From the NCBI GenBank assembly GCA_903857685.1, contig CAIOFO010000148.1, positions 1 through 64,000 on the forward strand: a stretch of 64,000 bases of DNA, in the 5' to 3' direction. Shown here piece by piece: positions 1 through 17,161 of the stretch (the stretch's first letter is position 1; the number at the start of each line of letters is the position of its first letter). Both the position numbers and the translations under genes were made by a program. Source of the stretch: an uncultured Alphaproteobacteria bacterium (GTDB taxonomy: Bacteria; Pseudomonadota; Alphaproteobacteria; Micropepsales; Micropepsaceae). Under the pieces are notes generated by a model. That model was not told where the DNA came from and searched no databases. It saw only the letters and a list, made by a program, of their open reading frames with translations.

Positions 1-290
1 GTCTCTATCATCAGCACTTATCATGCATACGCTATAGGATATGTTCTCTAGCGCTGTCGGCATTACACTTTTTGCCAAAAAATAAAAAACACTACGCGCA
101 GATTTTTTGAGCCTGTACAATCTGCCCGCAATGAATTCACCGACACCAATGCAAAAAATCGGACCGCTTAAATTTTCTTGCCAAGAGGGTGAGGTTGGAG
201 TGTGCTGACGGCAGCCACGACTTGAACGCGCCGGCGCGCTGCATCTGGGATGCGCTCCTCGCTCAAGCGGCTTGCTACAATGGTGAATCC

Positions 291-866
291 ATGACGCGAC
301 GGAAAAAATCTTCAGAAGTCTATAGCGGGCTGCTCACCGAACCCTTGCCGCCAAGCTTCAGACGGCGGTTCAGGCGCGCAGCTCTTCCGGCGGGCGCGCT
401 TGGCATCTATGCAAGCACATCACTGCCGGCCATATCTGGCAAGCTAAGCCACGTCCCCCAATGGCGCATTGAGTATGACCAGAAACTTCCACTTCTCCTG
501 GAGCATTTTGGGATCAAGCAGGGAGAATCCTATCCCTGGTTCAAATTGGCCGTGTGCCTGGCCGTTGCGCATGTCCCGGGGTTTCAGGAAAAGTCCCGTC
601 GGAAGGGCGGCCGCAAGCGGATCATGTCATGGGAAGAAGGGGCCAAACTCGACGCCAGATTTTGCGAATTGAAAAACAAAGGCCATAGCGAGCGCAGCGC
701 AGCTGCTATCATGGCCGAGGAAATAAAGAAGGCTGGCGGTCCGAAGGTCTCCGGCGCCGCGCTCCTGCGCAGGGTGCAGCGCCGCAGCGAAGCAACCCAG
801 AAATTCACCGCGCTGTTTGCCAGCTCGCTACTCCTGCCTGTCGTGACGCAAAATCCCAAACCCTGA
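291..866 (+). CDS. hypothetical protein (basic, island-encoded)
   Basis: ORF 189..866; ATG at 291 (MTRRKKSSEV...) is the more plausible start; no family recognised. Confidence 0.45.
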   Translation: MTRRKKSSEVYSGLLTEPLPPSFRRRFRRAALPAGALGIYASTSLPAISGKLSHVPQWRIEYDQKLPLLLEHFGIKQGESYPWFKLAVCLAVAHVPGFQEKSRRKGGRKRIMSWEEGAKLDARFCELKNKGHSERSAAAIMAEEIKKAGGPKVSGAALLRRVQRRSEATQKFTALFASSLLLPVVTQNPKP

Positions 867-973
867 ATTTTGCGTCACGCATATTTTGGGCGTGACTTTT
901 CTGCGCATTTTGTCCCCTTAAGTTGGCCTCAGTTCGCCGCACTTCGCTGCGATTGTTTCTAATGAGGCCAGTC

Positions 974-1204
974 ATGAACGATCAATCACCAACATATGTT
1001 CGCACGCGGCAGGCCGCGCGCTATCTCAGCCTGTCCCACCGCACCCTCGAAAAGCTGCGGGTCACCGGCGGCGGTCCCGATTACTTCAAGATGGGCCGGG
1101 CCGTCTCCTACGCCATCAGCGATCTTGACGCCTGGCTCGCCAAAAATCGCAGGAGCTCGACAAGCCTTGGCGCGCTCCCGCCAGTCGAACATTTCGGTAA
1201 CTAA
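974..1204 (+). CDS. AlpA/excisionase-like helix-turn-helix DNA-binding protein
   Basis: MNDQSPTYVRTRQAARYLSLSHRTLEKLRVTGGGPDYFKMGRAVSYAISDLDAWLAKNRR: typical MerR/AlpA-type HTH (tRQAA.YL.ls.rTLeklR..GggP.y.k.Gr.v.Y...dLdaWl). Confidence 0.8.
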   Translation: MNDQSPTYVRTRQAARYLSLSHRTLEKLRVTGGGPDYFKMGRAVSYAISDLDAWLAKNRRSSTSLGALPPVEHFGN

Positions 1205-1213
1205 GTGCCGGCG

Positions 1214-1291
1214 ACACACCGCGCCACACACCTAACCCGCATCAGGCCACACACCCAGGCACACACCAGATCACACACCAGGCCGCACACC
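1214..1291 (+). repeat. 12-bp-period tandem repeat with ACACACC core
   Basis: ACACACC cores at 1214, 1226, 1249, 1261, 1273 and a GCACACC at 1285; 12-nt spacing with one degenerate unit around 1238. Confidence 0.75.
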
Positions 1292-1603
1292 ATGCCAAAA
1301 CCGCAAAAGCCCAAGCGCAAACGCGCAATTCCATACATTTATTCAAACCCCCGCCTCGACGAATTGCTGGAGCAGCTGCTGCAAGACCGCGACTGGCGGC
1401 TTCGGCTCTATGCCTATCGATTGGAAGACGACCAAAAGATCCTGCCTGCCATTTATGCCGGTAGGCCATTTTCCGACTTGGAAGATTGGCTTCGTGATGA
1501 ACATGGTGGCGGGGATTTCCACATCATCATTCGGCGCGGCAAGAAAATGACTCTCTCCGGGGCGATTGGCATCGGTGTTCCACTTGCCCAGCAAGCGCGC
1601 TGA
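1292..1603 (+). CDS. hypothetical protein (DUF2285-like/ICE-associated?)
   Basis: MPKPQKPKRKRAIPYIYSNPRLDELLEQLLQDRDWRLRLYAYRLEDDQ...; ORF opens further upstream at 1205 through a CAC-rich repeat; follows the HTH gene. Confidence 0.5.
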   Translation: MPKPQKPKRKRAIPYIYSNPRLDELLEQLLQDRDWRLRLYAYRLEDDQKILPAIYAGRPFSDLEDWLRDEHGGGDFHIIIRRGKKMTLSGAIGIGVPLAQQAR

Positions 1604-2117
1604 TCGCTGCCACACGGGACAACGACCTGAGAATGTCTGCTTTGCGCCAAATGCGAACACCCGCTGAATGACCGCTTTTGACCCAAAGCAGACAATCCCG
1701 ATCGGTCATATATCTCAGACTTTGGTCTTAACCTGCTATGCCAATGCAGCCTTGGCGGCCAGCTTAGTCCTGAGTATTGATGCCGCCTGACATGCCGCGC
1801 TGCTTCGTCATTGCGCCCGGCCTATTGGGGAATCAACGTTAGTTGGTGGCAAAAACAGGAAGATTCTGGCGCGATCCCCATAAGACGGGAAGATTTCCTA
1901 TGCCGAATGCAAATTGCAGGCAGATGGCGGCACCAAAGCATCACGCATTGCATAAAATATCCGCGAGGGAGTACAAACAGAAATCTGCCGCCACGTTGCT
2001 TCGCGCGGCCGCTCGTTGCTATCGAACGTGTATTCACGCTTCAGTTTTGTATGAGCACCAGGATCGCTGCCGAGGCAGCGGAGTACCTGCCAGTCCCCAT
2101 AATCATTGCGCGTTCTG

Positions 2118-2579
2118 ATGTTGGAGATCATTTTGTTCGTACATTGGGAACATAAGTTTTCCGTTGGAAGCGAATTGGTCGACGCAGAACATCGTATGAT
2201 GTTGTTTCTGTGTCGGAAGCTTGATTTCGCGATCAAAAACGATTTTTCCGAAAGGAACCTCATGTGCATCATTCATGAGCTAAAGGCCGACACACAATTC
2301 CACTTTCTAAGCGAAGAAAATGTGATGCATGAGGTTGGGTATCCCGGACTTTCTCAACACAGTGCAATTCATTCTCAGCTACTCAAGACTCTGGACGAAA
2401 TGACGGTGGAGATCGTCAAGCACAAAACCAGCGAGTTCAGCATGCTCGATTTTCTTCACAACTGGCTGCTGAATCACATCCAGCATGCAGACGCGGAGAT
2501 GGGGGCCTACGTCAGGTCCGCATCAACGCGACCGATTGGGGAGAAGTTCTACAAACATTTTCTAACTTACCGAGATTGA
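2118..2579 (+). CDS. bacteriohemerythrin / hemerythrin domain protein
   Basis: FVHWEHKFSVGSELVDAEHRMM...FHFLSEENVMHEVGYPGLSQHSAIH...LLNHIQHADAEMGAYV: His/Glu/Asp iron-ligand pattern of hemerythrins. Confidence 0.85.
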   Translation: MLEIILFVHWEHKFSVGSELVDAEHRMMLFLCRKLDFAIKNDFSERNLMCIIHELKADTQFHFLSEENVMHEVGYPGLSQHSAIHSQLLKTLDEMTVEIVKHKTSEFSMLDFLHNWLLNHIQHADAEMGAYVRSASTRPIGEKFYKHFLTYRD

Positions 2580-2607
2580 GCGGACCGCCTAATTGCGAGC
2601 CGCCTGA

Positions 2608-2850
2608 TCCGAACAGGCAGCCCATCAGGCGCTGCGTCAGGAGAATGAACTAGACGGATACGGCCTAGCATGTTGGATAATGGAGAACAGGCCGGACATT
2701 CCCATCATTCTGGCAACAGGCGACCTGGGCAAGACCAATGCCGCCGCCCAAATCTGCACGATAGAGCATTTGCCCAAGCCCTATGATTTTGCCGAAGCGG
2801 CCAGAAAAATCCGCGAGACAATCCTCCGGCACAGGCAGAAGCGGGCGTAA
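2608..2850 (+). pseudogene. C-terminal remnant of a response-regulator receiver domain
   Basis: Frame opening after TGA 2605: ...DGYGLACWIMENRPDIPIILATGDLGKTNAAAQICTIEHLPKPYDFAEAARKIRETILRHRQKRA*; matches only the second half of a CheY-like fold, no start/N-terminal half. Confidence 0.6.
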
Positions 2851-2964
2851 AGGCCCCCAAGTCCAGAAGCGTTCCACGGATGTGATCGCCCCGCCAATAC
2901 CGACGGGCTAGGACGCTGAGGTAGCGCGACCCATCAATCGCGCAATGAATGACCGCTTCTGACC

Positions 2965-3122
2965 GATTGTGTTGAAAAAGTCCCCGACCAACACTTCGGA
3001 GCCGTTTCCGCGCAACAATGATTCAATTGCGGTATGTATCTTGAATCATCGCTGCGTCAGCAAGGCTCTGCTCGACAGGAAATTGCGAGCGAAAAATGCC
3101 TTCCGACTTTTTCAACACAATC
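2965..3122. mobile_element. MITE-like / non-autonomous IS remnant with 18-bp perfect terminal inverted repeats
   Basis: GATTGTGTTGAAAAAGTC (2965-2982) and GACTTTTTCAACACAATC (3105-3122) are exact reverse complements; flanked by direct GACC (2961-2964 and 3123-3126); no transposase inside. Confidence 0.8.
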
Positions 3123-3286
3123 GACCCAAAGCGGACGTTAGCAGTTGCACAAAACTCTCAGACTTTGCCCTGCGTCACCCTGCGCAAACAGGCTGGAACC
3201 TTTGTCGTGGTGGAGACTTTAGTCCAAGGACGCGGCTGGAGTTCCAATCTCGTCGCCGGTGCATCACGCACCCAAGGATTATTTCG

Positions 3287-3628
3287 ATGAAAATGATGAT
3301 TGTCGGCGCGCTTGCGCTTTCGATCGTGGCCGGGTCGGTCGCGACTGCCCAGCCCTATGGCAATGGCCCAGGTCAGGGCCAGGGCAATCGCGGCCAGGCT
3401 GCCTCCCACAAAAACTGGGGCAAGGATTACGGTGGCAGCCATAAGTGGAAGCGCGGCCAGCGCGTTGGCTACAACGATTGGCAGAGCGCTCAGGTCGTTG
3501 ACTACCGTCAGCACAAGCTGCGTCAACCGCCGCGCGGCTACGAATGGCGGGAGTCAAACGGCCAATATATTATGGCTGCGGTAGCGACTGGCCTGATCGC
3601 CTCGATCATCCTGAACGCCGGGCACTAG
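3287..3628 (+). CDS. RcnB-family periplasmic protein
   Basis: Signal peptide MKMMIVGALALSIVAGSVATAQ, then ...W.RGQRV...VVDYRQHKLRQPPRGYEWRESNGQYIMAAVATGLIASII, the RcnB-type C-terminus. Confidence 0.75.
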   Translation: MKMMIVGALALSIVAGSVATAQPYGNGPGQGQGNRGQAASHKNWGKDYGGSHKWKRGQRVGYNDWQSAQVVDYRQHKLRQPPRGYEWRESNGQYIMAAVATGLIASIILNAGH

Positions 3629-3743
3629 CCGAAGCGGCGCTCGGCGGGAATAAGCCCAGTCGAGCGCCACGGGCTGGCTTATGCCACCACCCCCTATCTC
3701 CGAGCGCTCATCTTGTCAGTAACCAACGCAATTGGAGTTTGTG

Positions 3744-4376
3744 ATGTTCGAGGCGATTAAAGGCTATGCGCTATTGATTGTTTTTGGACTGACATCCCCG
3801 TTCGGCATAAATCTTGGCACAGAACAGCCAAAATACCGAGTAATTGAAACGCTTGGTGGTGGGGTGGAGGTTCGTGAATACGTGGAGCGTATAGCGGCTG
3901 AAGTTACAGTTGATGCTCACACTTCTAATGAGGCTCGCAGTGAGGGCTTCAACACATTGGCGGGATATATCTTCGGTAAGAACAAGCTGAGGCAAAGCAT
4001 CGCAATGACCTCGCCAGTCGAAATAAATTCGAAAGGAAGGTCAATCGCAATGACGAGCCCCGTCGAAGTAAATGCGCGTGGCGGCTTGATGACGATGCGG
4101 TGCTTTATGCCAGCTGCCTATTTAATGGCGGAATTGCCCCAGCCTACTGATCCAAGAGTAAAACTCGTCGAGGTGCCGCCGGTAACGGTCGCAGCATTGC
4201 GGTACAGTGGGTCTACCATGGACGCCAATACGAAAGCGAAAACCATTGCGCTTTTGGATAGGCTGAAGTCTTCACAGTGGAAAGTGGCTGGCCCATCGAA
4301 GGCATTTTTTTACAACCCGCCTTGGACCATTCCTTTCCTTCGTCGCAATGAAGTTTTGGTCGAAGTCGCAGGGTAG
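3744..4376 (+). CDS. SOUL heme-binding family protein
   Basis: YRVIETLGGGVEVREYVERIAAEVTV...IAMTSPVEINSKGRSIAMTSPVEV...: SOUL family pattern. Confidence 0.85.
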   Translation: MFEAIKGYALLIVFGLTSPFGINLGTEQPKYRVIETLGGGVEVREYVERIAAEVTVDAHTSNEARSEGFNTLAGYIFGKNKLRQSIAMTSPVEINSKGRSIAMTSPVEVNARGGLMTMRCFMPAAYLMAELPQPTDPRVKLVEVPPVTVAALRYSGSTMDANTKAKTIALLDRLKSSQWKVAGPSKAFFYNPPWTIPFLRRNEVLVEVAG

Positions 4377-4568
4377 TTAGTCCTAAATCACCTATCTGAG
4401 CGGGATTGTCTATTTCAGACTGCGGAATGGCCGCTTTTGGCGCGGATCGGACCTTCGTCCCCAGTCAGTCTATTGGCCGCTTCTGACCCAAAGCGGACGT
4501 TTAACGTGGCCCTTCAAGAACGTTCTCAATGACCTACTCGTCACCATTTCTTTCGCGAAAAAATCTGG

Positions 4569-7500
4569 CTAGGTTGGGGCATTCATTCGGTCTCCATCCC
4601 GCAGCCAAATATAGATTGCAGGGATTACCAGCACTGTCAGTAGTGTGGACGACGCGAGCCCAAACAAAAGCGAAATGGCCAGGCCCTGGAAAATTGGGTC
4701 CGTCAAGATCGTCGCAGCGCCTATCATAGCCGCCAGAGCGGTCAGCAGAATCGGCCGGAAGCGCGTTGCGCCTGCGTCCAGGAGCACTTCGCGCAGGCTC
4801 TTGCCGGGCGTTTGGTCATGGCGAATAAAATCCACCAACAGGATCGAATTGCGCACAATGATGCCTGCCAGCGCAATGAAGCCGATCATGGAAGTGGCGG
4901 TGAAGGGCGCGCCAAATAGCCAGTGTCCCAGTAGAATACCAATTAGCGTCAGTGGAATGGGAGTTAGAATGACTAGCGGCAACTTGAAGCTTTTGAATTG
5001 TGCCACCACTAAGACATATATGCCCAGGATGGCGATCCCGAAGGCTGCGCCCATGTCGCGGAATGTGACATAGGTAACTTCCCATTCGCCATCCCAGAGC
5101 AGCGATGGCTTGGTTTCATCCGACGGCTGGCCATGCATCAGAATTTGGGGTTTATCCAGCTTGCCCCAATCATGCTTGGCAACCAACTTGTCGACCGCCA
5201 GCATACCGTAGATCGGAGCCTCAAAGTCGCCTGCCAATTCCGCGGAAACCATATCAACATAATGGGCGTCGCGGCGGAAAATTACCGGAGTGCCCAATTC
5301 TTCCTTGACGCTGACGACATCGCCCAGTTCGACAACCGCCTTGTTTCCGGGTTGCGCGTTAGCGGGAACGGGAGTTGAGGCCAGCTTTTGTGTCCAGGCG
5401 AGATCATTTTTGGGCAGGCGCACGATAATTTCCAGAGGGTTGCGATCCTCGCCACGGTGCGAATAGCCGACCGGGACACCGCCAAGCAGCATGCTCAGCG
5501 TGTCATACACATCGCTTTGTTCGACGCCGAAATATTCCAGCTTGTCCTGATCAATGGTGATGCGCAGTCGCGGGCGGGGATCGCCGAAAGAGTTGTCGAC
5601 ATCGACGATGTAGGGCACCGATTTGAATAAAGCCTCGGTTTGGTTCGCGACGGCCCGGCGAGTCTTGCTATCCGGCCCGTATATCTCAGCCAGCAAAGTA
5701 GCAAGAACAGGCGGTCCGGGCGGCACTTCCACGACCTTCACCACCGTACCTTTTGGCAGCGTCAGCTTTGCCATCTGTCGGCGAAGGTCAAGTGCGATGT
5801 CGTGGCTGGCGCGAGAACGATCGGCCTTATCGGCTAGGTTGACCTGCAGTTCGCCCATCTCGGGCTGGGTGCGAAGGTAATAGTGCCGGACAAGGCCGTT
5901 GAAGTTGAACGGGGCGGGCGCTCCTGCATAGGCCTGGATCGAATTGACTTCCGGAAGCTGCTCTGTGACAGCGGCAGCATTGAAAAGCGTTCGCGCCGTA
6001 TCTTCGACCGTTGCTCCCTCAGGTAAATCGACCAGCACCTCGAGTTCGGATTTGTTGTCGAAGGGCAGAAGCTTGACGGTAACGTTTTTGGTAACGAACA
6101 GGAGACAGGCAAGGACCGTCGCCGCTGCGACAAAGGCGAGGAAGCGTTTGGCGTTCCTGCGCGAATGCACCACTGGCGCAGCTAGTCGCCTGTAAATCGC
6201 GCCAAGCCTTCCTTCGCCATGGTGAGTATTTTTGTCACCATTGCGTGTTTTGCGCGAAATTTTGAGCATCGCCCAAGGTGCGATGACCATCGCTACGAAG
6301 AAGGAAAACAGCATGGCGGCCGAGGCGTTGGCCGGTATGGGCGCCATATAGGGGCCCATCATGCCCGAGACGAACAGCATGGGTAGGAGGGCCGCGACGA
6401 CGGTCAGGGTGGCGACGACAGTGGGATTACCGACCTCCGCCACTGCCTCGACGGCTGCCGTCATGCGGTCGCGCCCATCGACCATAGCCCAATGTCGAGA
6501 GATGTTCTCCACCACGACAATGGCGTCATCGACCAAAATGCCGATGGAGAAGATCAGGGCGAATAAGCTGACGCGGTTTATGGTGTAGCCCATCAGATTG
6601 GCGGCGAAGAGCGTCAGCAGGATGGTGGTTGGAATGACGATCAGTGTCACACCGGCCTCGCGCCAGCCGACCACAAAACCAATCAGAAGAACGATGGATA
6701 TCGTGGCGAGCGCCAGGTGGAACAGAAGCTCATTTGCCTTGTCATCTGCTGTCTTGCCATAGTCGCGTGTGATCTCGACATTGACGTCCGCAGGAATGAG
6801 CGGCCCCTTCAGCGCTTCAGCGCGCTTGACTAGGGATTCTGACACAACAACAGCGTTGGCGCCGGCACGTTTGGCGAATGCCACCGTAACGGCTGGTACG
6901 GTATTCCAGGCTGGTGGGCCGCCCTTGGTGGCACTGGTCCGAACCATGGACCAAGCGTGATGTTCGGCGACGCCAGGCCCGACGATGATATTCGCCAAGT
7001 CGCGCACATAGACCGGGCGCCCGTCTCGCGTCGTGACGAGAAGCAGCCCGATATCGGGGACGCCCGCCAGTGTACCGCCGGCGACGGCTTGCGCCATCTG
7101 GCCGCTTTGCCGAATCTGGCCGGCCAGGAAGGACCGGTTGGCGCCCTGAATCTTGGCTTCCAGCTGCTGCAGCGTAACGCCAAAGAGAGCGAGCTTTTCA
7201 GGATCAGGCTCGACTCTGATTTCCTCCGCCGTACCCCCGGAAATATAAGTCAGTCCGACATTGTCAACCTTGATAAGTTCGGCTTGAAGTTTGTTGGCGA
7301 CGGCATAGAGGTCGCTCTCCGTCCAGCGGCCTGCGGCTGCTGGCTTTGCCGATAGCGTCATGGTCACGATCGCAACATCGTTAATGCCGCGCGCGACGAT
7401 CAGAGGTTCGGGGATGCCTAGCGGAATCTGGTCATAATTTGCGCGCAATTTTTCCTGGACGCGCAGGATAGCGTCGTCTTCGCTGGTGCCAGTGAGAAAG

Positions 7501-7796
7501 CGCGCGGTGACCATGACTTGGTCGTCCTGCGTCTGGCTGTAGACATGTTCGACCCCATTGATCCCCTTGACGATCTCTTCCAGGGGTTTCGTGACGAGCT
7601 CGGCGGCGTCAGGTCCTTTTAGGCCGTCGGCTTTGACAAAGATGTCGACCATCGGAACGCTGATCTGTGGCTCCTCTTCGCGGGGAATTATTGCGAGAGC
7701 GATCAAGCCGAATACGATTGCCGCCAAGAGAAAAAGGGGAGTCAACGGTGAGCGGATCGTTGCTCGCGTAAGTCTTCCGGAAAGACCAAGGTTCAT
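4569..7796 (-). CDS. efflux RND transporter permease subunit (AcrB/HAE1-like)
   Basis: 1075 aa; IPREEEPQISVPMVDIFVKADG, GILVDDAIVVVENISRH, GFIALAGIIVRNSILLVDFI; typical RND duplicated topology. Confidence 0.93.
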   Translation of the reverse strand: MNLGLSGRLTRATIRSPLTPLFLLAAIVFGLIALAIIPREEEPQISVPMVDIFVKADGLKGPDAAELVTKPLEEIVKGINGVEHVYSQTQDDQVMVTARFLTGTSEDDAILRVQEKLRANYDQIPLGIPEPLIVARGINDVAIVTMTLSAKPAAAGRWTESDLYAVANKLQAELIKVDNVGLTYISGGTAEEIRVEPDPEKLALFGVTLQQLEAKIQGANRSFLAGQIRQSGQMAQAVAGGTLAGVPDIGLLLVTTRDGRPVYVRDLANIIVGPGVAEHHAWSMVRTSATKGGPPAWNTVPAVTVAFAKRAGANAVVVSESLVKRAEALKGPLIPADVNVEITRDYGKTADDKANELLFHLALATISIVLLIGFVVGWREAGVTLIVIPTTILLTLFAANLMGYTINRVSLFALIFSIGILVDDAIVVVENISRHWAMVDGRDRMTAAVEAVAEVGNPTVVATLTVVAALLPMLFVSGMMGPYMAPIPANASAAMLFSFFVAMVIAPWAMLKISRKTRNGDKNTHHGEGRLGAIYRRLAAPVVHSRRNAKRFLAFVAAATVLACLLFVTKNVTVKLLPFDNKSELEVLVDLPEGATVEDTARTLFNAAAVTEQLPEVNSIQAYAGAPAPFNFNGLVRHYYLRTQPEMGELQVNLADKADRSRASHDIALDLRRQMAKLTLPKGTVVKVVEVPPGPPVLATLLAEIYGPDSKTRRAVANQTEALFKSVPYIVDVDNSFGDPRPRLRITIDQDKLEYFGVEQSDVYDTLSMLLGGVPVGYSHRGEDRNPLEIIVRLPKNDLAWTQKLASTPVPANAQPGNKAVVELGDVVSVKEELGTPVIFRRDAHYVDMVSAELAGDFEAPIYGMLAVDKLVAKHDWGKLDKPQILMHGQPSDETKPSLLWDGEWEVTYVTFRDMGAAFGIAILGIYVLVVAQFKSFKLPLVILTPIPLTLIGILLGHWLFGAPFTATSMIGFIALAGIIVRNSILLVDFIRHDQTPGKSLREVLLDAGATRFRPILLTALAAMIGAATILTDPIFQGLAISLLFGLASSTLLTVLVIPAIYIWLRDGDRMNAPT

Positions 7797-8794
7797 GGGG
7801 TCAGAAGCCTGTCGCCCTGCTTCAGCCCAGAAAGCACCTCAACACCGTCTGTTACACGCGCCGTCCAATGGCTTTCACCGCGCTGAACCGGCACATCGAG
7901 CGCCGGGCCAGCCTTTTGCCACAGACGCGCATAGTCGATGCCAAATCGGGTCGTCAGCAGGTGTCCTGGGATGATAATGGTTGTGCGCGTGCCCGCGGCA
8001 ACCCAGACGGGAACCCGCTCGCCGACGAAATAGTCCGTAAGGCCACCTACACTTGCATCGGCCACCACATGCCCGTTTTCGATCTGGGGATAGACAAGCT
8101 TGATTGCGCCAAATCGCGGCGTCGAGCCAGTATCGTTGCTCTCCAAGCGTATCGGGTCGCCCGCTTTCAGGAAGCGGGCATGCCGTTCGGGCACCTCAAG
8201 CCGCAGAACGAAATCCTTCTCGGCCACGGTGGCGACGGTATCGCCGTTTAACACCACCGTACCTGCTGTGACCGGAACGGTGATGACGCGCCCTGCAGTC
8301 GGTGCGAGAATCTTTCCTTCCGTCACCTGCTGCTGAACCACAGAACGCTGTGCGTTTATTGATTTTAGGTTGCTCAGTGCCACGTCGTAAGCGGTATGAG
8401 CCTGATCATAGGCGTTCCGGGCAATCGCCCCCTGCGTGACAAGGCGCTGGGCGCGATCGAAATCGACTTTGGCCTGGGCGGACTGAGCCTCGGCTGCCTG
8501 AACCTGGGCGGCGTAGGAATTGATCTGCAGTGAAAGTTTGCGATCACCTACCGTGGCGATAACCTGGCCCTGCTCGACATGATCGCCCTGGTGGACCTCC
8601 AGTTCGAGGATGGTGCCGTCCATCCGGGACCGCGCCGGGACGACATACGCAGACTCAACGGTGGCAAACACCGACTTTTCGTCGGGGACCGATGACTGCG
8701 TGACCAGATAGGTGATTGGCATCGGCGGTTCAGGATGAGGTGCCGGTGCGGCTGTCATGCCGAAAAAGGCCATTATCGCTGCAAAAATGTGCAT
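7793..8794 (-). CDS. efflux RND transporter periplasmic adaptor subunit (MFP)
   Basis: HlyD-type lipoyl/hairpin/beta-barrel pattern (EVHQGDHVEQGQVIATV...ILAPTAGRVITVPVTAGTVV); ORF track extends to 8974 but MHIFAAIMAFFGMTAAPAP at 8794 is a likely start; overlaps permease by 4 bp. Confidence 0.88.
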   Translation of the reverse strand: MHIFAAIMAFFGMTAAPAPHPEPPMPITYLVTQSSVPDEKSVFATVESAYVVPARSRMDGTILELEVHQGDHVEQGQVIATVGDRKLSLQINSYAAQVQAAEAQSAQAKVDFDRAQRLVTQGAIARNAYDQAHTAYDVALSNLKSINAQRSVVQQQVTEGKILAPTAGRVITVPVTAGTVVLNGDTVATVAEKDFVLRLEVPERHARFLKAGDPIRLESNDTGSTPRFGAIKLVYPQIENGHVVADASVGGLTDYFVGERVPVWVAAGTRTTIIIPGHLLTTRFGIDYARLWQKAGPALDVPVQRGESHWTARVTDGVEVLSGLKQGDRLLTP

Positions 8795-8811
8795 TGGCCC
8801 TGCCTTCGCCG

Positions 8812-9162
8812 TTACTGTTGATCGCGCGTTTTGCCCGTCTCTGGGTCGATCGAAATGGTCGGTAAACCTGCTGACTTCCAGGCCTTGATGCCCCCTTTCA
8901 CGTGGCTGTCGTTGCTCAATCCGGCGGCCTGGCACTGGGCCACGGCTTTGGCTGAACGCATTCCGGAACCGCATTGAAACACGATCTTGCGCTTACCATG
9001 CTCGGGCAGAGTGTGGGGATCAAAGGTTGAAAGCGGAAACAACAACGCGCCATGAATGCGTTCAGCCGCGTATTCTGCTTGCTCGCGTACATCTATCAGC
9101 ACGATTGCATCTTCTTTTAATTGGCGCGCCACTTCCTGGGGATCAAGATCCTTGATGATCAT
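8812..9162 (-). CDS. rhodanese-like domain protein
   Basis: AIVLIDVREQAEYAAERIHGALLFPLSTFDP...IVFQCGSGMRSAKAVAQCQAAG...VKGGIKAWKSAGLP; active-site Cys in CGSGMRS. Confidence 0.9.
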   Translation of the reverse strand: MIIKDLDPQEVARQLKEDAIVLIDVREQAEYAAERIHGALLFPLSTFDPHTLPEHGKRKIVFQCGSGMRSAKAVAQCQAAGLSNDSHVKGGIKAWKSAGLPTISIDPETGKTRDQQ

Positions 9163-9524
9163 CGTGATTTCTTTCCCGGCAACTTCTTTGTGTGGCGCTT
9201 GCTCTTGTGCATGCCGACGTCCGCGGAACTGCAATAAACGTCGTATAGTGTCTCAACCAGACGGCGCACGATCGGGTTGGCAAGCGCATACCAGATCGTC
9301 TGGCCTTCCCGCCGTGTGGAAACTACTCCGTCCTTGCGCAAAAGCGCCAAGTGCTGGGACGCCGTGGAATCGCGCAATTCCAGGAAAGCGGCCAATTCGC
9401 CTACTGATCGCTCCCCACCCACCAGCTGACAAAGGATCATCAGGCGATGACGATTGCCCAGCGCCTTCAGCATTTGCTCAGCGGTAACGGCCGATTCCCG
9501 CATCTCTTCAAGATTCATGTTCAT
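9159..9524 (-). CDS. ArsR-family transcriptional regulator, BigR/SqrR-like
   Basis: ALGNRHRLMILCQLVGGERSVGELAAFLELRDSTASQHLALLRKDGVVSTRREGQTIWYALANPIVRRLVETLYDVYCSS; two Cys in BigR/SqrR-like positions. Confidence 0.88.
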   Translation of the reverse strand: MNMNLEEMRESAVTAEQMLKALGNRHRLMILCQLVGGERSVGELAAFLELRDSTASQHLALLRKDGVVSTRREGQTIWYALANPIVRRLVETLYDVYCSSADVGMHKSKRHTKKLPGKKSR

Positions 9525-9533
9525 ACTTGCGTA

Positions 9534-9551
9534 TATACGAGTTATCGTATA
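9534..9551. promoter_or_regulatory. palindromic putative operator of the BigR-like regulator
   Basis: TATACGA-GTTA-TCGTATA, perfect 7-bp inverted repeat 10 bp upstream of the regulator start, in the divergent intergenic region. Confidence 0.6.
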
Positions 9552-9627
9552 CATAGTCAACTATGATGCGGGTAGTGATGACGAAGAAAAACCGTTTCAT
9601 TGAGGTCGATTAGAGGAGCTTTACAAC

Positions 9628-9831
9628 ATGAGTGTAGATCAAGCCGTCCTTGTCTTTGCTGGGCTTGTTATCTTGGCGGGCACAGTCTTGACGCAACTTT
9701 ACAGTTCGTGGTGGCTCCTGCTGCCAGCGTTTGTCGGCCTAAATTTGATCCAGTCTGTTTTTACCGGTTTTTGCCCGGCGGCAATCGTCTTCCGCCGTCT
9801 GGGATTAGCGCCTGGTGAGATATTCCGCTAA
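9628..9831 (+). CDS. YgaP-type/DUF2892 transmembrane protein
   Basis: Two TM helices and ..FVGLNLIQSVFTGFCPAAIVFRRLGL signature; SD-like AGGAG upstream. Confidence 0.85.
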   Translation: MSVDQAVLVFAGLVILAGTVLTQLYSSWWLLLPAFVGLNLIQSVFTGFCPAAIVFRRLGLAPGEIFR

Positions 9832-9981
9832 CTGATTCAATAACCACGCACCATGTTGCCTAGTGTCATGCGGCGCGATCTATTGTACCGCTGGCAATAA
9901 GCAACACGGTTGGCGTCCCACCCCGAAGCGTGGTGAGGGCTTCCCTAGGCTAATCGGCCTATGAGCCGTCGGCCGCTCCCC

Positions 9982-11421
9982 TCAGAGCGCGATCTGGGTA
10001 CGGAATGCAACGGTGTCGAAATTCTGGTTCAGGCTGCCGAACGGCGCCGCCGCATTGATGTGGTTGACTTGGGTATTCTGGAACTGAAGAGTGAATTTCA
10101 ATGCCGTGTTGGGATACCAGTTTACCCCCAGCGTACCGATGCGCTGCTCACCGCCGCGGATGCCGCCCGCCGGAGTGACCGCGCCCGTCAGGCCAACATT
10201 GTCGTTGAGATTGAGGTCGCTATAGCGGGCCGCCAGTTCTAAGGCCCCCCAGCCGCCGCCGGGTAGCGAGAAATTGACCCGTGGCTTGGGATTGGTGAAG
10301 GAGCCCGTGGCGGTGGACCAGCTGCGCGCCTCGCCGGTCAGAACCCAGCTGCCTTCGGCATACCAACCGTTGAAGCCTTGGCCGCGCAAGGTAGTAATGC
10401 CGCGCTGGTCAATGCCGTATTTGAAATAACCGCCCTGGGCCAAGAAATTGTCATAGGTGGCTGCGCCTTCCAGGTTCCAGTCCCAGGCATCCGTGACATT
10501 GGCATCGGACACCGAAACGAATTTAGTGCTGTTGTCATCCACGATCAGTTCGGGTGGATTGGAAATGCTAAAAGGGCGCGGCGAGTTCAGCGCTGAGGTG
10601 GTATCACCGGGGCGGAAGACATCGGTGCTGGCCAGGCTGGCGACTAAGCGCCAGTCATTGTCGCTATAGACTACGGCCGCGACACGGGCCACCAGCGCCT
10701 GCTGCTCGTCGAACAGCAACGTAGTTTCCTGCACCTTGTCCCCAGTTAAGGCCAGAGAACCAAACAATCTGTCGCCCAGATAAAGAAGCTCGAAGGAATC
10801 GCGGCCATCACCACCCGCCATATTGCGGGTAGCGTCGCCGGGTGCGGAACGCTCCATCAGTAATTGATCGGTGGCGGCATAGGAATCGTCCAGGCCAGTG
10901 GACGGCGGATGGGCGCCGATGCGCACCGTGAAGGGCGCCAACCCGTCATATTCAACATAAGCCTGCTGGATATGGCCGGGGCTTTCCGTGCCGGTCGAGC
11001 CGCCAGAGCCGTAATCAATGTTGAAATAATAGGACCAGTCGCCGAACAGCTTGCCCTGCAGGCCAATCTGGGCGCGGCGGAAATTGGCGCCGCTGGATAA
11101 GTCCGGACCCAGCGCCAAGGCACGGGCCTTGTTGCTCTGCATGTAATCCGCAACGTCAAACTGGCCAGTCAGGCGCAGCTGGGCGCTGAAGCGACCATCG
11201 GCCGAGGTCAGAGACAGGCGGCCATTGCTGACGCTGGCTTGCGTCTGTTCCTGGGTATCTAAGCGACGGCGATCATCCTGGGCATTGATCTGCCTCTGCT
11301 GGGCATCAATCATTTTCTGCATCTCGTCGAGGCGCTTTGTAAGGGCTGCTTCATCGGCAAGGGCAGGTAGGACTGTCAGTACAATCGCTGCCCCAGTGAG
11401 CAGAGCAAAACGCAGTTTCAT
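9982..11421 (-). CDS. OprO/OprP-type phosphate-selective-like porin
   Basis: Signal peptide, coiled coil LTKRLDEMQKMIDAQQRQINAQDD, then beta-barrel with LRLTGQFDVADYMQ...RRAQIGLQGKLFGDWSYYFNIDYG. Confidence 0.8.
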   Translation of the reverse strand: MKLRFALLTGAAIVLTVLPALADEAALTKRLDEMQKMIDAQQRQINAQDDRRRLDTQEQTQASVSNGRLSLTSADGRFSAQLRLTGQFDVADYMQSNKARALALGPDLSSGANFRRAQIGLQGKLFGDWSYYFNIDYGSGGSTGTESPGHIQQAYVEYDGLAPFTVRIGAHPPSTGLDDSYAATDQLLMERSAPGDATRNMAGGDGRDSFELLYLGDRLFGSLALTGDKVQETTLLFDEQQALVARVAAVVYSDNDWRLVASLASTDVFRPGDTTSALNSPRPFSISNPPELIVDDNSTKFVSVSDANVTDAWDWNLEGAATYDNFLAQGGYFKYGIDQRGITTLRGQGFNGWYAEGSWVLTGEARSWSTATGSFTNPKPRVNFSLPGGGWGALELAARYSDLNLNDNVGLTGAVTPAGGIRGGEQRIGTLGVNWYPNTALKFTLQFQNTQVNHINAAAPFGSLNQNFDTVAFRTQIAL

Positions 11422-11496
11422 GAGAGTTCCCCATTTTTTACGGCCATAGTTGCAATGAGATTGGCGGGCCAATGCAGTTGCGACATTTAGTGCCGC

Positions 11497-12273
11497 TTAC
11501 TTTGTTAGGACCGAAAATCCATCTTTCCGGAACACCGCGCTTGCCGTGGGCGAAGCCAGATAGGCGAGAAAGCCCTTGGCATCCGATTTGGCGTCCTTGG
11601 TCAGCGCGGCGGGATAGAGGATTGGTTGGTGGCTGTTTTCCGGAAATACGCCTACGACCTTTACGCGTGGCTCGGCCTTGGCGTCGGTTTCGTAGACGAT
11701 GCCCAGCGGCGCCTCGCCCCGGGCCACATATTCCAGTGCCACGCGAACATTCTCGGCATTGACCAGCCTGTCCACCACGCCGTTCCATGCCCCCAGCGAG
11801 ATCAACGAGGTGCGGCCGTATTTTCCCGCCGGCACGGAATCCGGATCGGCGATGGCCAGCCGCCCGCCTTTCAGCGCCCCGGCCAGGTCGAAGTGCGGCG
11901 CGATGGTGATGCTTGTGGCTGAGTCGCTGGCCGCGACCAGTACCAGCCGGTTGCCGAGCAAATTTGTGCGGCTGTCATGGGCGATCAAGCCCTTATTGTC
12001 GAGGTAATCCATCCAGTCCAGGTCAGCCGAAATGAAAATGTCGGCACCGCTGGAGTTTTCGATTTGCCGCGCCAGAACCGAGGAAGCCGCCAGCGATAGC
12101 GTTACTGTTTTGCCGCTTTCTTTCTGGTAGTCGGCGGCGATTTCCTTCAAAGCGTCGGTCAGGGATGAAGCGCCGAATACGGTGATATCAGCGGCATAAG
12201 CACCCGCTGAGGCGTACAAAAGGACAAGTGCGGCCAATACTGCCTGTTTCAATTGCTTCAAAGGACACCCCAT
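11497..12273 (-). CDS. modA: molybdate ABC transporter substrate-binding protein
   Basis: ADITVFGASSLTDALKEIAADYQKESGKTVTLSLAASSVLARQIENSSGADIFISADLDWMDYL... classic ModA. Confidence 0.93.
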   Translation of the reverse strand: MGCPLKQLKQAVLAALVLLYASAGAYAADITVFGASSLTDALKEIAADYQKESGKTVTLSLAASSVLARQIENSSGADIFISADLDWMDYLDNKGLIAHDSRTNLLGNRLVLVAASDSATSITIAPHFDLAGALKGGRLAIADPDSVPAGKYGRTSLISLGAWNGVVDRLVNAENVRVALEYVARGEAPLGIVYETDAKAEPRVKVVGVFPENSHQPILYPAALTKDAKSDAKGFLAYLASPTASAVFRKDGFSVLTK

Positions 12274-12298
12274 TTGGTCTTGATATATTCATGATACT

Positions 12299-12326
12299 AT
12301 CGTTATATACGGGCGAATACCACGAA
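12299..12326. promoter_or_regulatory. Mo-box-like (ModE/MopAB) site upstream of modA
   Basis: ATCGTTATATA-CGGGCG-AATACCACGAA; left half fits ATCGNTATATA exactly, right half matches TATATAACGAT at 7 of 11 positions. Confidence 0.5.
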
Positions 12327-12426
12327 ACCTGTCACAAATAAAGGGCAGAAAGAAACAGTAACTTTGGCAGCCGGCCATTACAAAATGGCGCGGCAATATC
12401 TTCATTGTTCAAAATGCTAGGGAGAT

Positions 12427-12639
12427 TTGTCGGTGAGGCTCAGCGCGCGCAATCAATTAAAGGGGCACATTGTCGGCCTTCAGAAGGGGCAAACAACGGC
12501 CCATGTGCGGATAGATATTGGTGGAGGCGTGCTCGTTACTTCCTCGATTACAAATGAGGCAGTGGACGACTTGGCGCTAAAGGTTGGTGATGGTGTCTTC
12601 GCAATTATCAAATCTTCAGACGTAATTGTTGGAAAATGA
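12427..12639 (+). CDS. molbindin (Mop/TOBE-domain molybdate-binding protein)
   Basis: LSARNQLKGHIVGLQKGQTTAHVRIDIGGGVLVTSSITNEAVDDLALKVGDGVFAIIKSSDVIVGK; TTG start. Confidence 0.9.
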   Translation: MSVRLSARNQLKGHIVGLQKGQTTAHVRIDIGGGVLVTSSITNEAVDDLALKVGDGVFAIIKSSDVIVGK

Positions 12640-13145
12640 CGATGGGTTGGCAATCTATGCACGGCATCATGAGGGTTATGAAAAGGCTTGCGGTGGGATA
12701 TCTAGCCGTCCTTTGGTTTGCTTCTGGCGCTGCTGCCGAGCCCTCTATTTCTGTCACCGGCATGGTCGCTAACCCGTTGCATTTGTCGCTTGCTGATCTT
12801 CGCGGACTTCCATCTGCGCATGTTGCCGTTTCCCAGCTATCGGGTCGTGGCCCTGTCAATCTGGAATGCACTGGGGTTACCATCTCATCGCTCCTCAAAA
12901 AGGCAGTGCTTTCCTTCGGACCTAAAAATAATGCGAATCTGGCGCACACGCTTTTGATCACAGCCGACGATGGCTATGCAGTCGCGTTATCCATTGGGGA
13001 AATTGATCCTGAATACGGGCATGTTGAGCCCATCGTAGCCACAGACTGTTTGGGTAAGCCGCTGGATGCTCCACGGCTTGTTGTACCGGGAGACATTCAC
13101 GCGGGCCGGGCGGTCAACGGTATCGTGACCATAGAAGTGAAATAA
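12636..13145 (+). CDS. small secreted SUOX/molybdopterin-binding-like domain protein
   Basis: Signal peptide, then ISVTGMVANPLHLSLADLRGLPSAHVAVSQLSGRGPVNLECTGVTISSLLKKA...; ATGA overlap with molbindin gene. Confidence 0.7.
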   Translation: MTMGWQSMHGIMRVMKRLAVGYLAVLWFASGAAAEPSISVTGMVANPLHLSLADLRGLPSAHVAVSQLSGRGPVNLECTGVTISSLLKKAVLSFGPKNNANLAHTLLITADDGYAVALSIGEIDPEYGHVEPIVATDCLGKPLDAPRLVVPGDIHAGRAVNGIVTIEVK

Positions 13146-13325
13146 GCGAAAGCTACCTACTTACCCTCGAATGACCGCTATTGGCGGCGGACATTCGGCT
13201 GACGTGTGTCGGTCTGAAGCTTCCTTTCAATGTGGCACTTTTTTCCGCCACATAAAAATTCCACCGCAAAATCCCTGTGGTTGCCGCGCACAGCCTGTCC
13301 TTAGAGCGCATAAGAGGCAAAGCGT

Positions 13326-13355
13326 GAATGTCCGCTTTGTCAATAGCGGACATTC
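13326..13355. repeat. inverted repeat of the AATGTCCGCT intergenic repeat family
   Basis: GAATGTCCGCT-ttgtcaat-AGCGGACATTC, 11-bp perfect arms. Confidence 0.75.
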
Positions 13356-13400
13356 AGCAATGTCTGCTTTGCGCCAATAACCGCCAGGAGCACCATAAGA

Positions 13401-14573
13401 TCAAATCGCTGATTTTTGCTCATGCGCTGGCGGTGGCAGACTGGTGTTGCTTGGAATTGCTGGCTTCGGCAATTGCGCGAGGTTTGAAGAAAATTCAATT
13501 GGGTCCGAGCGCTTGTCGAATAAGGGGTTTGCGACGACACGGTGCAGATCTTCTGGCCGAAGATGGGTATAGCGCTTGAGCATTTTCCAATCGCGGTGGC
13601 CGGTGACAAGGGAAACCTGTTGGATCGTCAATCCCGCTTCGAACAGCCTGCTCGCGGCTTCATGCCGAAGATCATGAAAGTGAAGATCTACAATTTTCAA
13701 TTCTTGACAGGCACGGCGAAACGCGGCGCCGACGGAACGCCCGTTATAGGGAAACACGCGATCATTGCGGCTTGATATGCTTGCTTGCTCTTCCAAAAGC
13801 GCCCAGGCGTCGTATCCTGTCAGATGCAACAGCGGAACCTTTTGATGATTTCCGGTCTTGACGCGCGGATCCTTACGGTCCCGGACTAGCGCAGTTCTGT
13901 TTGTGGCATCGATATCCTGCCAAAGCAGATGACAGATTTCGTCCTGGCGCATTGCCGTGGCGACGGCAAAGCGCGCTATGCGGGCGACCGGAATAGATTG
14001 CCGCGAACTCCTCTCCAGATGATTGAATATCCGGTCGAGCTCGTCTTGGGTCGGCCGGCGATCCCGAGCCTGTGATTTGGCAATCAGGCCCAAGCGCTTG
14101 AGCGCAATCCGGGCCAGATCGACCGGTTCGGCGGACACGGCAATGCCGTGAACCGCTGCGGCATGGGCGATGATGGTCTTCACATAGCCCAGATCCGCGC
14201 CAATCGTGACGGGGCCTGCGCCTTCGCGCGCGCGATCTCTGCCGAATGTGACAAGGCGTTCGCGGGTCAAGTCGGCAATCCGGACCATGCCGAGTCTCTT
14301 CTTGAGGGAGTCCAGGCTGAAGACCTTGGACCTTTGGTGGCACTTGCCAACCTCTTTCATATCGGAGAAATGCAGGTCGACGAGGTGTCCGAAGGTCGTC
14401 GGATCGCTGACCGAGGAGGTTCGAGGGGCTTCCCCGCGATCGATCCGGCGCTCATTCTCGAGGGCCCATTCCTCGGCGTCCTTGTGGCGCCGGAAGGTCT
14501 CGCTTATGTAGCGGCCCTTACGGCGGATCTGGACGCGCCAATTTCCGGAGGAGAGCCTGAAAACGGTGGCCAA
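13401..14573 (-). CDS. tyrosine recombinase / phage-type integrase
   Basis: Catalytic motifs ATAMRQDEICHLLWQDI, LHFHDLRHEAASRLFEAG, VTGHRDWKMLKRYTHL. Confidence 0.93.
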   Translation of the reverse strand: MATVFRLSSGNWRVQIRRKGRYISETFRRHKDAEEWALENERRIDRGEAPRTSSVSDPTTFGHLVDLHFSDMKEVGKCHQRSKVFSLDSLKKRLGMVRIADLTRERLVTFGRDRAREGAGPVTIGADLGYVKTIIAHAAAVHGIAVSAEPVDLARIALKRLGLIAKSQARDRRPTQDELDRIFNHLERSSRQSIPVARIARFAVATAMRQDEICHLLWQDIDATNRTALVRDRKDPRVKTGNHQKVPLLHLTGYDAWALLEEQASISSRNDRVFPYNGRSVGAAFRRACQELKIVDLHFHDLRHEAASRLFEAGLTIQQVSLVTGHRDWKMLKRYTHLRPEDLHRVVANPLFDKRSDPIEFSSNLAQLPKPAIPSNTSLPPPAHEQKSAI

Positions 14574-14630
14574 GATGTGCTTTCCTTGTGCAGTAAGCAG
14601 TCAAAACAGAACGTATTTGGGCGTTTTTGA

Positions 14631-15668
14631 GTGCACACGGGCGTGCACATGTTCCTATTTAATTCCTTGAATATACTGGATAAACCGTTGATCTTCAAAG
14701 GCAAAAAATTCTGTGTCGCCCCGATGATGGACTGGACGGACCGGCATTGCCGTGTGCTGCACCGGCTGCTCTCCGCCCGCGCCCTGCTCTACACCGAAAT
14801 GGTGACCGCGGAAGCCATCCTGCATGGCGACAAGGCGCGGCTGCTGGGCTTTGACGCCCGCGAGCATCCCGTGGCGCTGCAACTGGGCGGCTCGGACCCG
14901 GCCAAACTGGCCGAGGTGGCGCGCATCGCCGAAGGCTTCGGCTATGACGAAGTGAATCTCAATGTCGGCTGCCCCTCCGACCGGGTGCAGTCGGGCCGCT
15001 TCGGCGCCTGTCTCATGCTGGAGCCCGCTTTGGTCGCCGCCAGTGTCGGGGCGATGCGCAAGGCGGTGGCGATCCCGGTGACGGTGAAGTGCCGCATCGG
15101 GGTGGACGAGCAGGACCCCGAAGTGGCGCTGCGCGATTTGATCCGCGGCTGCGCCGCTGCCGGCGTCACCAGTTTCGCCGTGCATGCGCGCAAGGCCTGG
15201 CTGGAGGGCCTGTCGCCCAAGGAGAACCGCGATGTGCCGCCGCTGGATTATGACCTGGTGCACCGGGTGAAGCTGGAAAATCCGGGCCTGGAGATCGTCC
15301 TCAATGGCGGCATCACCACCCTGGAGGAAGCGCAGGCGCATCTTGCCCGCTTCGACGGCGTCATGCTGGGCCGCGCCGCCTACCAGAATGCGGCGATGCT
15401 GGCCGAGGTGGATGCGCGCTTTTTCGGCGGCGAAGCCCGCGATCTGGACACGGCAGTGGCGGGTTATTGCGATTATGTCGAAGGCAAGCTGGCCGAGGGC
15501 GTGCGCCTCAACAGCATGACCAAGCACATGCTGGGACTGTTCAACGGCCGGCCCGGGGCGCGGGCCTTCCGCCGCCACCTCAGCGAGAACGCCACCCGCG
15601 ACGATGCCGGGATCGCGGTGCTGCGCGACGCCCTGGCGATGGTGCAGCGGCAGAGCGAAGCGGCCTAG
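14631..15668 (+). CDS. dusA: tRNA-dihydrouridine(20/20a) synthase DusA
   Basis: VAPMMDWTDRHCRVLHRLLS...EVNLNVGCPSDRVQSGRFGACLM...ARKAWLEGLSPKENRDVPPLDY; exact start uncertain because the 5' end looks recombined. Confidence 0.93.
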   Translation: MHTGVHMFLFNSLNILDKPLIFKGKKFCVAPMMDWTDRHCRVLHRLLSARALLYTEMVTAEAILHGDKARLLGFDAREHPVALQLGGSDPAKLAEVARIAEGFGYDEVNLNVGCPSDRVQSGRFGACLMLEPALVAASVGAMRKAVAIPVTVKCRIGVDEQDPEVALRDLIRGCAAAGVTSFAVHARKAWLEGLSPKENRDVPPLDYDLVHRVKLENPGLEIVLNGGITTLEEAQAHLARFDGVMLGRAAYQNAAMLAEVDARFFGGEARDLDTAVAGYCDYVEGKLAEGVRLNSMTKHMLGLFNGRPGARAFRRHLSENATRDDAGIAVLRDALAMVQRQSEAA

Positions 15669-17161
15669 ATCTTCTGATCGTATTCGCCGACTTCAGGATG
15701 TTTCGCCAGACGCGCGTCGATGTCGGCGAACATGGCGCGCATATTGGCCTCGGATGTCGGGCTTTCCACCACCACCACCAGCGACGGCTTGTTGGACGAG
15801 GCCCGCACCAGGCCCCAGCTGCCGTCCGCCAGCGTCACGCGCACGCCATTGACGGTAACGACCGAGGCGATGGCCTGGCCCAGCAGCTTTTCGCCCTTGG
15901 CGGCCAGCTCAGAATAGTCCTTCACCAGCGCCTCGACCACCCTGTACTTTTTGTCGTCGGGACATTCCGGCGCCATGGTGGGCGAACCCCAGGTCTTGGG
16001 CAGCCCGTCATACAGCGCCGACAATTTCGCCGGCCCCGCCCGGTCCAGCATTTCCAGCACCGCGATGCCGGCGACAATGCCGTCGTCATAGCCATGGCCG
16101 ATGGGCGGGTTGAAGAAGAAATGGCCGGACTTTTCAAAGCCCGCCAGCGCCTTCAGTTCGGCGGTGCGGCGCTTGATATAGGAATGGCCGGTCTTCCAGT
16201 AGTCGGTCTTGACGCCGCGCTGATTCAACACCGGATCGGTCAGGTAAAGCCCGGTGGATTTCACATCCACCACAAATTGCGCATTTTCATGCTTGGCAGA
16301 CAAATCGCGCGCCAGCAGCACCCCGATCTTGTCGGCGAAGATTTCGCGGCCCGTGTCATCCACCACGCCGCAGCGGTCGCCGTCGCCGTCAAAGCCCAGG
16401 CAGAGGTCGGCGCCCGACGCCTTCACCGCATCGCCCATGGCGTGCAGCATATGCATGTCTTCCGGATTGGGATTGTATTTGGGGAAGGTGAAATCCAGCT
16501 CGGTGTCCATGCCGATGACCTCGGCGCCGATGCGGCGCAAGGCTTCCGGCGCGAAGGCTCCGGCCGTGCCGTTGCCGCAGGCGGCGATCACCTTGATGGG
16601 GCGCGACAGCTTGTGGCCCTTGGTCACCGCCGCAAGGTACGTCTCGCGCATCTCGGGCACGGCGATATAGGCGCCGCCGGGACGCGGCTTGCCGAGACCC
16701 TCCAGCACGATCTTCTTGATGGCGTTGATCTCGTCCGGCCCGAAGGTCAGCGGCCGCTGCGCCCCCATCTTCACGCCGGTCCAGCCATTTTCATTGTGGC
16801 TGGCGGTGACCATCGCCACCGCCGGGCAGTCCAGCGCGAATTGCGCGTAATAGGCCACCGGCGACAGCGCCAGCCCGATGTCATGCACTTCGCAGCCGGC
16901 CTGAAGCAGTCCCAGCGTCAGGGCCTGCTTCACCGACAGGGAATAGGAGCGGTAGTCATGGCCGGTGACGACCTTGGGCTTGACGCCGATATCGTGCAGA
17001 TAGGTGCCCAGCCCCAGCCCCAGCGCCTGGATGCCGAGCAGATTGATCTCCTTGCCCAGGAGCCAGCGCGCGTCATATTCGCGAAAGCCGTTGGCGGTGA
17101 CCAAGGGCAAGTTCTCGTAATCCGCCGTATTGGGGACAAGGTCGGCGCGCGGCTTGATCAT
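15665..17161 (-). CDS. phosphomannomutase/phosphoglucomutase
   Basis: 498 aa; TASHNENGWTGVKMG active-site Ser loop, DGDGDRCGVVDD metal loop. Confidence 0.92.
   Translation of the reverse strand: MIKPRADLVPNTADYENLPLVTANGFREYDARWLLGKEINLLGIQALGLGLGTYLHDIGVKPKVVTGHDYRSYSLSVKQALTLGLLQAGCEVHDIGLALSPVAYYAQFALDCPAVAMVTASHNENGWTGVKMGAQRPLTFGPDEINAIKKIVLEGLGKPRPGGAYIAVPEMRETYLAAVTKGHKLSRPIKVIAACGNGTAGAFAPEALRRIGAEVIGMDTELDFTFPKYNPNPEDMHMLHAMGDAVKASGADLCLGFDGDGDRCGVVDDTGREIFADKIGVLLARDLSAKHENAQFVVDVKSTGLYLTDPVLNQRGVKTDYWKTGHSYIKRRTAELKALAGFEKSGHFFFNPPIGHGYDDGIVAGIAVLEMLDRAGPAKLSALYDGLPKTWGSPTMAPECPDDKKYRVVEALVKDYSELAAKGEKLLGQAIASVVTVNGVRVTLADGSWGLVRASSNKPSLVVVVESPTSEANMRAMFADIDARLAKHPEVGEYDQKI

Follow-up and report, generated by a model that had tools for sequence, protein, structure and literature searches.

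A candidate sulfane-sulfur-responsive operon with a two-Cys ArsR-type repressor, a rhodanese and an RND pump in an alphaproteobacterial genome

Introduction

What signal controls an RND pump whose genes follow those of a two-Cys ArsR-type regulator and a rhodanese, and what does such a pump export? The question is raised by a stretch of 64,000 nucleotides (the window) that forms the start of a 107-kb contig of an alphaproteobacterial assembly (3.0 Mb, 160 contigs). A preliminary description had proposed a BigR-like regulator and a sulfur-responsive efflux system. The second proposal stands as far as the neighbourhood goes: a two-Cys repressor and a rhodanese, often with sulfide:quinone oxidoreductase (SQR), are conserved beside the RND pair.

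Results and Discussion

Organization of the locus

Four genes on the minus strand encode an ArsR/SmtB-family two-Cys repressor of the SqrR/BigR/YgaV/HlyU group (P0004; 9159–9524; Pfam HTH_5; metalloregulator ArsR in family scans; C32 and C98), a single-domain rhodanese (8812–9162; 116 aa; Pfam Rhodanese PF00581, 59.8 bits) with the loop CGSGMR (C64), an MFP/HlyD periplasmic adaptor (7793–8794; 333 aa; Pfam HlyD/RND_mfp; TIGR01730, 128.5 bits, above its cutoff), and an AcrB/HAE-like RND permease (4569–7796; 1075 aa; Pfam ACR_tran, 476 bits). The genes start with ATG, overlap by 4 bp at the ArsR/rhodanese and MFP/RND junctions, and leave 17 bp between rhodanese and MFP. Divergently, positions 9628–9831 of the plus strand encode a 67-aa DUF2892/YgaP-like transmembrane protein (Pfam YgaP-like_TM, 36.0 bits against a cutoff of 25.3) with the motif FTGFC (C49). 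The co-orientation, the overlaps and the divergent YgaP-type protein were thus as the preliminary description had them. It had also named a separate promoter for the RND genes as evidence against its proposal; no sigma-70-type promoter was predicted on the operon strand inside the four-gene operon. No outer-membrane channel gene was found in the operon, and a TolC-like gene lies near the orthologous pump in some sphingomonad loci.

The region adjoining the operon (9982–13145) encodes a phosphate-selective porin O/P family protein, a molybdate-binding ModA and a small exported protein weakly similar to molybdopterin oxidoreductases. A search of related pump loci showed neither the ModA nor the porin gene. 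Farther on, immediately upstream of a Dus-type dihydrouridine synthase gene (14631–15668, plus strand), there is a tyrosine recombinase gene (13401–14573, minus strand); an excisionase-like HTH_17 gene is found at 923–1204. An integrase beside a dus gene is a known type of island insertion site. The pump operon may belong to a mobile island that extends on the left beyond the contig. A search for attachment-site repeats of this integrase found no copy of at least 14 bases of the dus 5′ region elsewhere in the window. A 19-nt exact repeat (1632 and 13359) was rejected as an attachment site, as it resembles a dispersed repeat family instead. Short intergenic repeats of the GAATGACCGCTTTTGACCCAAAGCGGAC type occur at 1663, 2944, 3106, 4422 and 4468, and the 19-nt repeat may be of the same type.

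The regulator and its candidate operator

C32 and C98 are the sole cysteines of the regulator, with a spacing of 66, and in a sequence alignment to PDB relatives they fall on the cysteines of LMIMC and FCSG in SqrR (SqrR C41/C107 positions). Neither varies in an alignment of 27 regulators, of which nearly all come from this pump clade's loci, in agreement with the earlier remark that two cysteines are kept at BigR-like places. By sequence as well as by predicted fold, the best PDB matches were HlyU, SqrR, BigR and YgaV. Structure modelling, which had been proposed as a check, yielded a model with a pLDDT of 86.8. Its best fold matches, and the nearest solved relatives of the regulator, were HlyU and SqrR (46–49% identity), the SqrR matches including disulfide and tetrasulfide structures, while the BigR match was at 38–41% identity. 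The BigR equivalog identity (NCBIfam NF040642) was rejected, since the regulator scored 88.7 bits against a cutoff of 155. Therefore, “SqrR/BigR-group two-Cys repressor” is the right name; of the proposed BigR-like identity, the fold and the Cys pair hold and the BigR assignment itself does not. Proteins of this two-Cys group sense sulfane sulfur via a polysulfide bridge (PMC12423496, PMC10451225). By analogy with the group, to which SoxR also belongs, the regulator is probably a sulfane-sulfur-sensing repressor.

The divergent intergenic region contains a perfect palindrome, TATACGA-GTTA-TCGTATA (9534–9551), ten bases upstream of the regulator ATG, which is a candidate operator. In the window genome and in each of three others (G018, G037 and G064), TATACG-N6-CGTATA is matched exactly a single time, always at this locus; no exact match was found in G030. 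Of the 22 same-family loci having an ArsR gene, 15 show the pattern, within two mismatches, near or upstream of the regulator start, and a near-perfect 24-base palindrome is present in a Bradyrhizobiaceae MAG (L076). A single exact site per genome, at this locus, together with its recurrence in relatives, points to a regulator that would act locally and control its own operon.

Conservation of the pump neighbourhood

Permease orthologues (60–87% identity) were gathered from the same family, plasmids and species genomes, which gave 88 loci whose neighbours within 5 kb were compared with those of 35 other RND genes of four related genomes. Pumps with 81–83% identity were found in proteobacterial MAGs. 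Neighbours of the 88 orthologous pumps included ArsR at 63 loci (two-Cys ArsR at 52), DUF2892 at 66, SQR at 45 and rhodanese at 39. Among the control pumps, ArsR was found at two, neither with the Cys pair, and two-Cys ArsR, rhodanese, DUF2892 and SQR at none of the 35. The difference was significant for each of the five neighbours (Fisher p ≤ 2e-7), although the loci are related and two contigs are counted twice (L081 = L056 and L113 = L050); for this reason the contrast itself outweighs the p values. The exact order ArsR-rhodanese-MFP-RND, for which a survey had been suggested, is conserved at 22 loci (20 without duplicates), mostly with a divergent DUF2892 gene. The preliminary description would have been contradicted had the regulator and rhodanese failed to co-occur with this RND pair elsewhere, and the counts of 52 and 39 remove that objection. 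The arrangement varies: the rhodanese gene follows the pump in Azospirillum, the regulator gene follows it in sphingomonads and Asticcacaulis, and the pump of Paracoccus denitrificans PD1222 is flanked by a persulfide dioxygenase-YeeE-sulfurtransferase cluster on one side and an SQR-like gene on the other. Distances between regulators correlate with those between pumps (Mantel r 0.62, 0 of 2000 permutations), to which shared genome ancestry also contributes. At nine of the 88 loci (e.g. L052 4369–4752, L039, L040, L043 and L046) a small protein of the AhpD/carboxymuconolactone-decarboxylase fold is encoded, possibly a thiol-active partner.

The set is found in many alphaproteobacteria. SQR often accompanies it, and persulfide dioxygenase, which adjoins some of the orthologous pumps, sometimes does. 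Therefore, the sulfur link of the regulator, rhodanese and RND genes is real. None of the sulfur neighbours is present at 14 of the 88 loci, and at the sister pump locus (L047) SQR is kept with no ArsR or rhodanese shown; the pump can therefore work without them. Distant pumps (40–46% identity; mostly from other phyla and gammaproteobacterial sulfur bacteria) had no two-Cys ArsR or rhodanese neighbours with the same seeds, which makes the association a trait of the clade at or above about 60% identity. RND homologues of about 42–44% identity from gammaproteobacterial and other sulfur bacteria (L130, L134, L140, L141, L148 and L153) carry a C-terminal tail of 130–300 aa, which is of low complexity, rich in Lys, and ends in a conserved (R)RGIRLK-like motif. 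A rhodanese fused to the gammaproteobacterial homologues (1209–1357 aa) was considered and rejected, because their extra C-terminus is such a low-complexity tail, rich in Lys, Ala and Pro.

SQR, rhodanese and DUF2892

The divergent slot normally holds SQR and DUF2892 in relatives. Their flavoprotein is a true SQR, matching the solved SQR 3sz0 over its full length with 508 bits; the NCBIfam models leave it unnamed. No close SQR homologue was found in the window genome, while the same search detected SQR in G018 and G016. The window genome has lost SQR. The pump tree implies about 18 changes in the state of SQR among 72 loci, and the sister of the window's pump (L047) has the gene. Given this absence and these repeated changes, the pump with its regulator, rhodanese and DUF2892 persists without SQR. 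As no close homologue is present, the organism may not make sulfane sulfur from sulfide via SQR. A search of the window genome for persulfide dioxygenase gave a best match of 38% identity with a metallo-beta-lactamase fold.

The CxxGxR loop is present in 39 of 40 pump-linked rhodaneses, and the DUF2892 protein carries a conserved Cys motif. The rhodanese and the YgaP-like transmembrane domain are encoded by separate genes and not as a single YgaP protein. The window genome also encodes a second two-Cys ArsR with a fused rhodanese-YgaP-TM protein at a separate locus (C160; L073, 3923–4803, plus strand), a canonical ygaVP-like pair without a pump.

Comparison with known systems

SqrR of Rhodobacter capsulatus has the same two-Cys ArsR fold and is about 47% identical to the window regulator where the two align. 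SqrR represses SQR and rhodanese genes, among others (PMC9995734), and relatives of the window likewise carry SQR divergently. Unlike SqrR, the window regulator appears local: it has one exact operator-like site, its neighbourhood has lost SQR, and its operon includes an RND pump. The locus resembles E. coli ygaV-ygaP in that a two-Cys regulator adjoins a rhodanese and a YgaP-type transmembrane domain; however, the YgaP halves are separate genes on opposite strands, an MFP-RND pair follows, and the genome has its own fused YgaP (C160) in addition to the split halves. With the BigR operon of Xylella and Agrobacterium it shares a two-Cys repressor, a DUF2892-type membrane protein and a rhodanese function, but neither a Blh persulfide dioxygenase-rhodanese fusion nor a sulfite exporter was found in the window operon (ORF list of positions 1–16000 and family scans of neighbouring proteins).

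A link between RND pumps and two-Cys regulators is itself already published. In a 2025 study of sHdrR, RND pumps were reported among the transporters encoded next to two-Cys sulfane-sulfur regulators (PMC12423496), and a 2017 study described an H2S-responsive RND-SQR operon of Azospira suillum (Dsui_3440-3443; RND-SQR-MFP), deletion of which left the H2S oxidation rate unchanged (PMC5358917). These show the same kind of association, likened here by description, and the Azospira text names SQR but neither an ArsR regulator nor a rhodanese. The present analysis adds the pump clade, its comparison with control pumps, a candidate operator and a form of the locus that lacks SQR.

Proposed mechanism and alternative explanations

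Sulfur control of the locus is well supported at the sequence level. Of the persulfide or electrophile gating suggested in the preliminary description, it is the sulfur part that the locus bears out. The support consists of the gene order, the Cys pair, the fold, the unique operator-like site, the SQR-linked conservation, the CGSGMR loop, the DUF2892 Cys motif and the AcrB-type RND permease; from these we infer DNA binding, the sulfur bridge, release of the repressor on persulfidation, the action of a split YgaP and the exported compound. A dimeric two-Cys repressor bound to the palindrome would keep both the ArsR-rhodanese-MFP-RND operon and the DUF2892 gene opposite it repressed. Once persulfide or polysulfide bridged C32 and C98, the repressor would leave the DNA, and the gene set would be made. 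The rhodanese and DUF2892 proteins would together form a split YgaP, one supplying the sulfurtransferase and the other the membrane part, that hands on sulfane sulfur at the inner membrane. Working with an outer-membrane channel whose gene lies elsewhere, the MFP-RND pump would clear the membrane or periplasm of a compound that arises when sulfane sulfur is in excess; polysulfide, S8 or an organic polysulfide is the most plausible candidate. We favour this overall reading with some confidence: a self-repressed operon, derepressed by sulfane sulfur, that combines a dedicated pump and a YgaP-type sulfurtransferase split over two genes.

What the pump exports is a separate matter. The permease has the ACR_tran domain and the TM4 Asp pair of AcrB/HAE-like pumps, and D423, D424 (TM4) and R982 (motif GIIVRNSIL) are invariant among the compared pumps; by analogy with AcrB, we take them to be the proton-relay residues in TM4 and TM10. 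A tentative suggestion is that the MFP-RND pair is dedicated to exporting sulfane sulfur (as polysulfide, S8 or organic polysulfides): under a persulfide-sensing repressor, it would pick up from the inner membrane the hydrophobic product of SQR activity or of excess persulfide and carry it outside. Polysulfide or S8 is the most economical guess of substrate because SQR, their producer, is the commonest enzyme partner of the pump. It is also possible, if doubtful, that reactive sulfur is a mere alarm signal for a general drug, electrophile or organometal pump whose substrates are not sulfur compounds. The permease is AcrB/HAE-like, reached no curated NCBIfam subfamily and was not recognised as belonging to a sulfur-specific one; its one Cys is non-conserved, and the MFP has none. 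MarR-family repressors of drug pumps are described as sensing sulfane sulfur as well (PMC11211675), and E. coli ygaVP is cited as tributyltin-inducible (in PMC12423496). Against a general pump, the link with SQR, rhodanese and DUF2892 is specific to this clade and absent at other RND pumps of the same genomes.

For RND pumps that were up under H2S, the Azospira study suggested a role in metal efflux (PMC5358917), and the window pump might accordingly remove metal ions or metal-sulfide complexes arising under sulfide stress. We regard this as improbable: the permease scored 265.8 against a cutoff of 701.45 with the CusA/CzcA heavy-metal RND model (TIGR00914), and no metal-binding Cys pattern was found in permease or MFP. 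Its TM4 motif, VDDAIVVVEN, is of the drug-pump type. The separate ygaVP-like pair on C160 also raises the thought that such a regulator-rhodanese unit merely happens to precede an unrelated pump. The contrast with the control pumps (two-Cys ArsR 52/88 against 0/35, DUF2892 66/88 against 0/35), the gene overlaps, the lack of a predicted internal sigma-70-type promoter on the operon strand and the co-divergence of regulator and pump make such a chance neighbourhood very hard to credit.

We found no demonstrated exporter for sulfane-sulfur removal from membranes in the literature. Should polysulfide or elemental sulfur be what it exports, the pump would account for the way in which sulfide-oxidising or sulfide-exposed bacteria rid their membranes of sulfane sulfur. 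The pump clade is well delimited and occurs in the culturable genera Azospirillum, Paracoccus, Bradyrhizobium and Novosphingobium. Even with another substrate, reactive sulfur would switch on an AcrB-type pump, so that in many alphaproteobacteria of soil and water efflux would be tied to exposure to sulfide.
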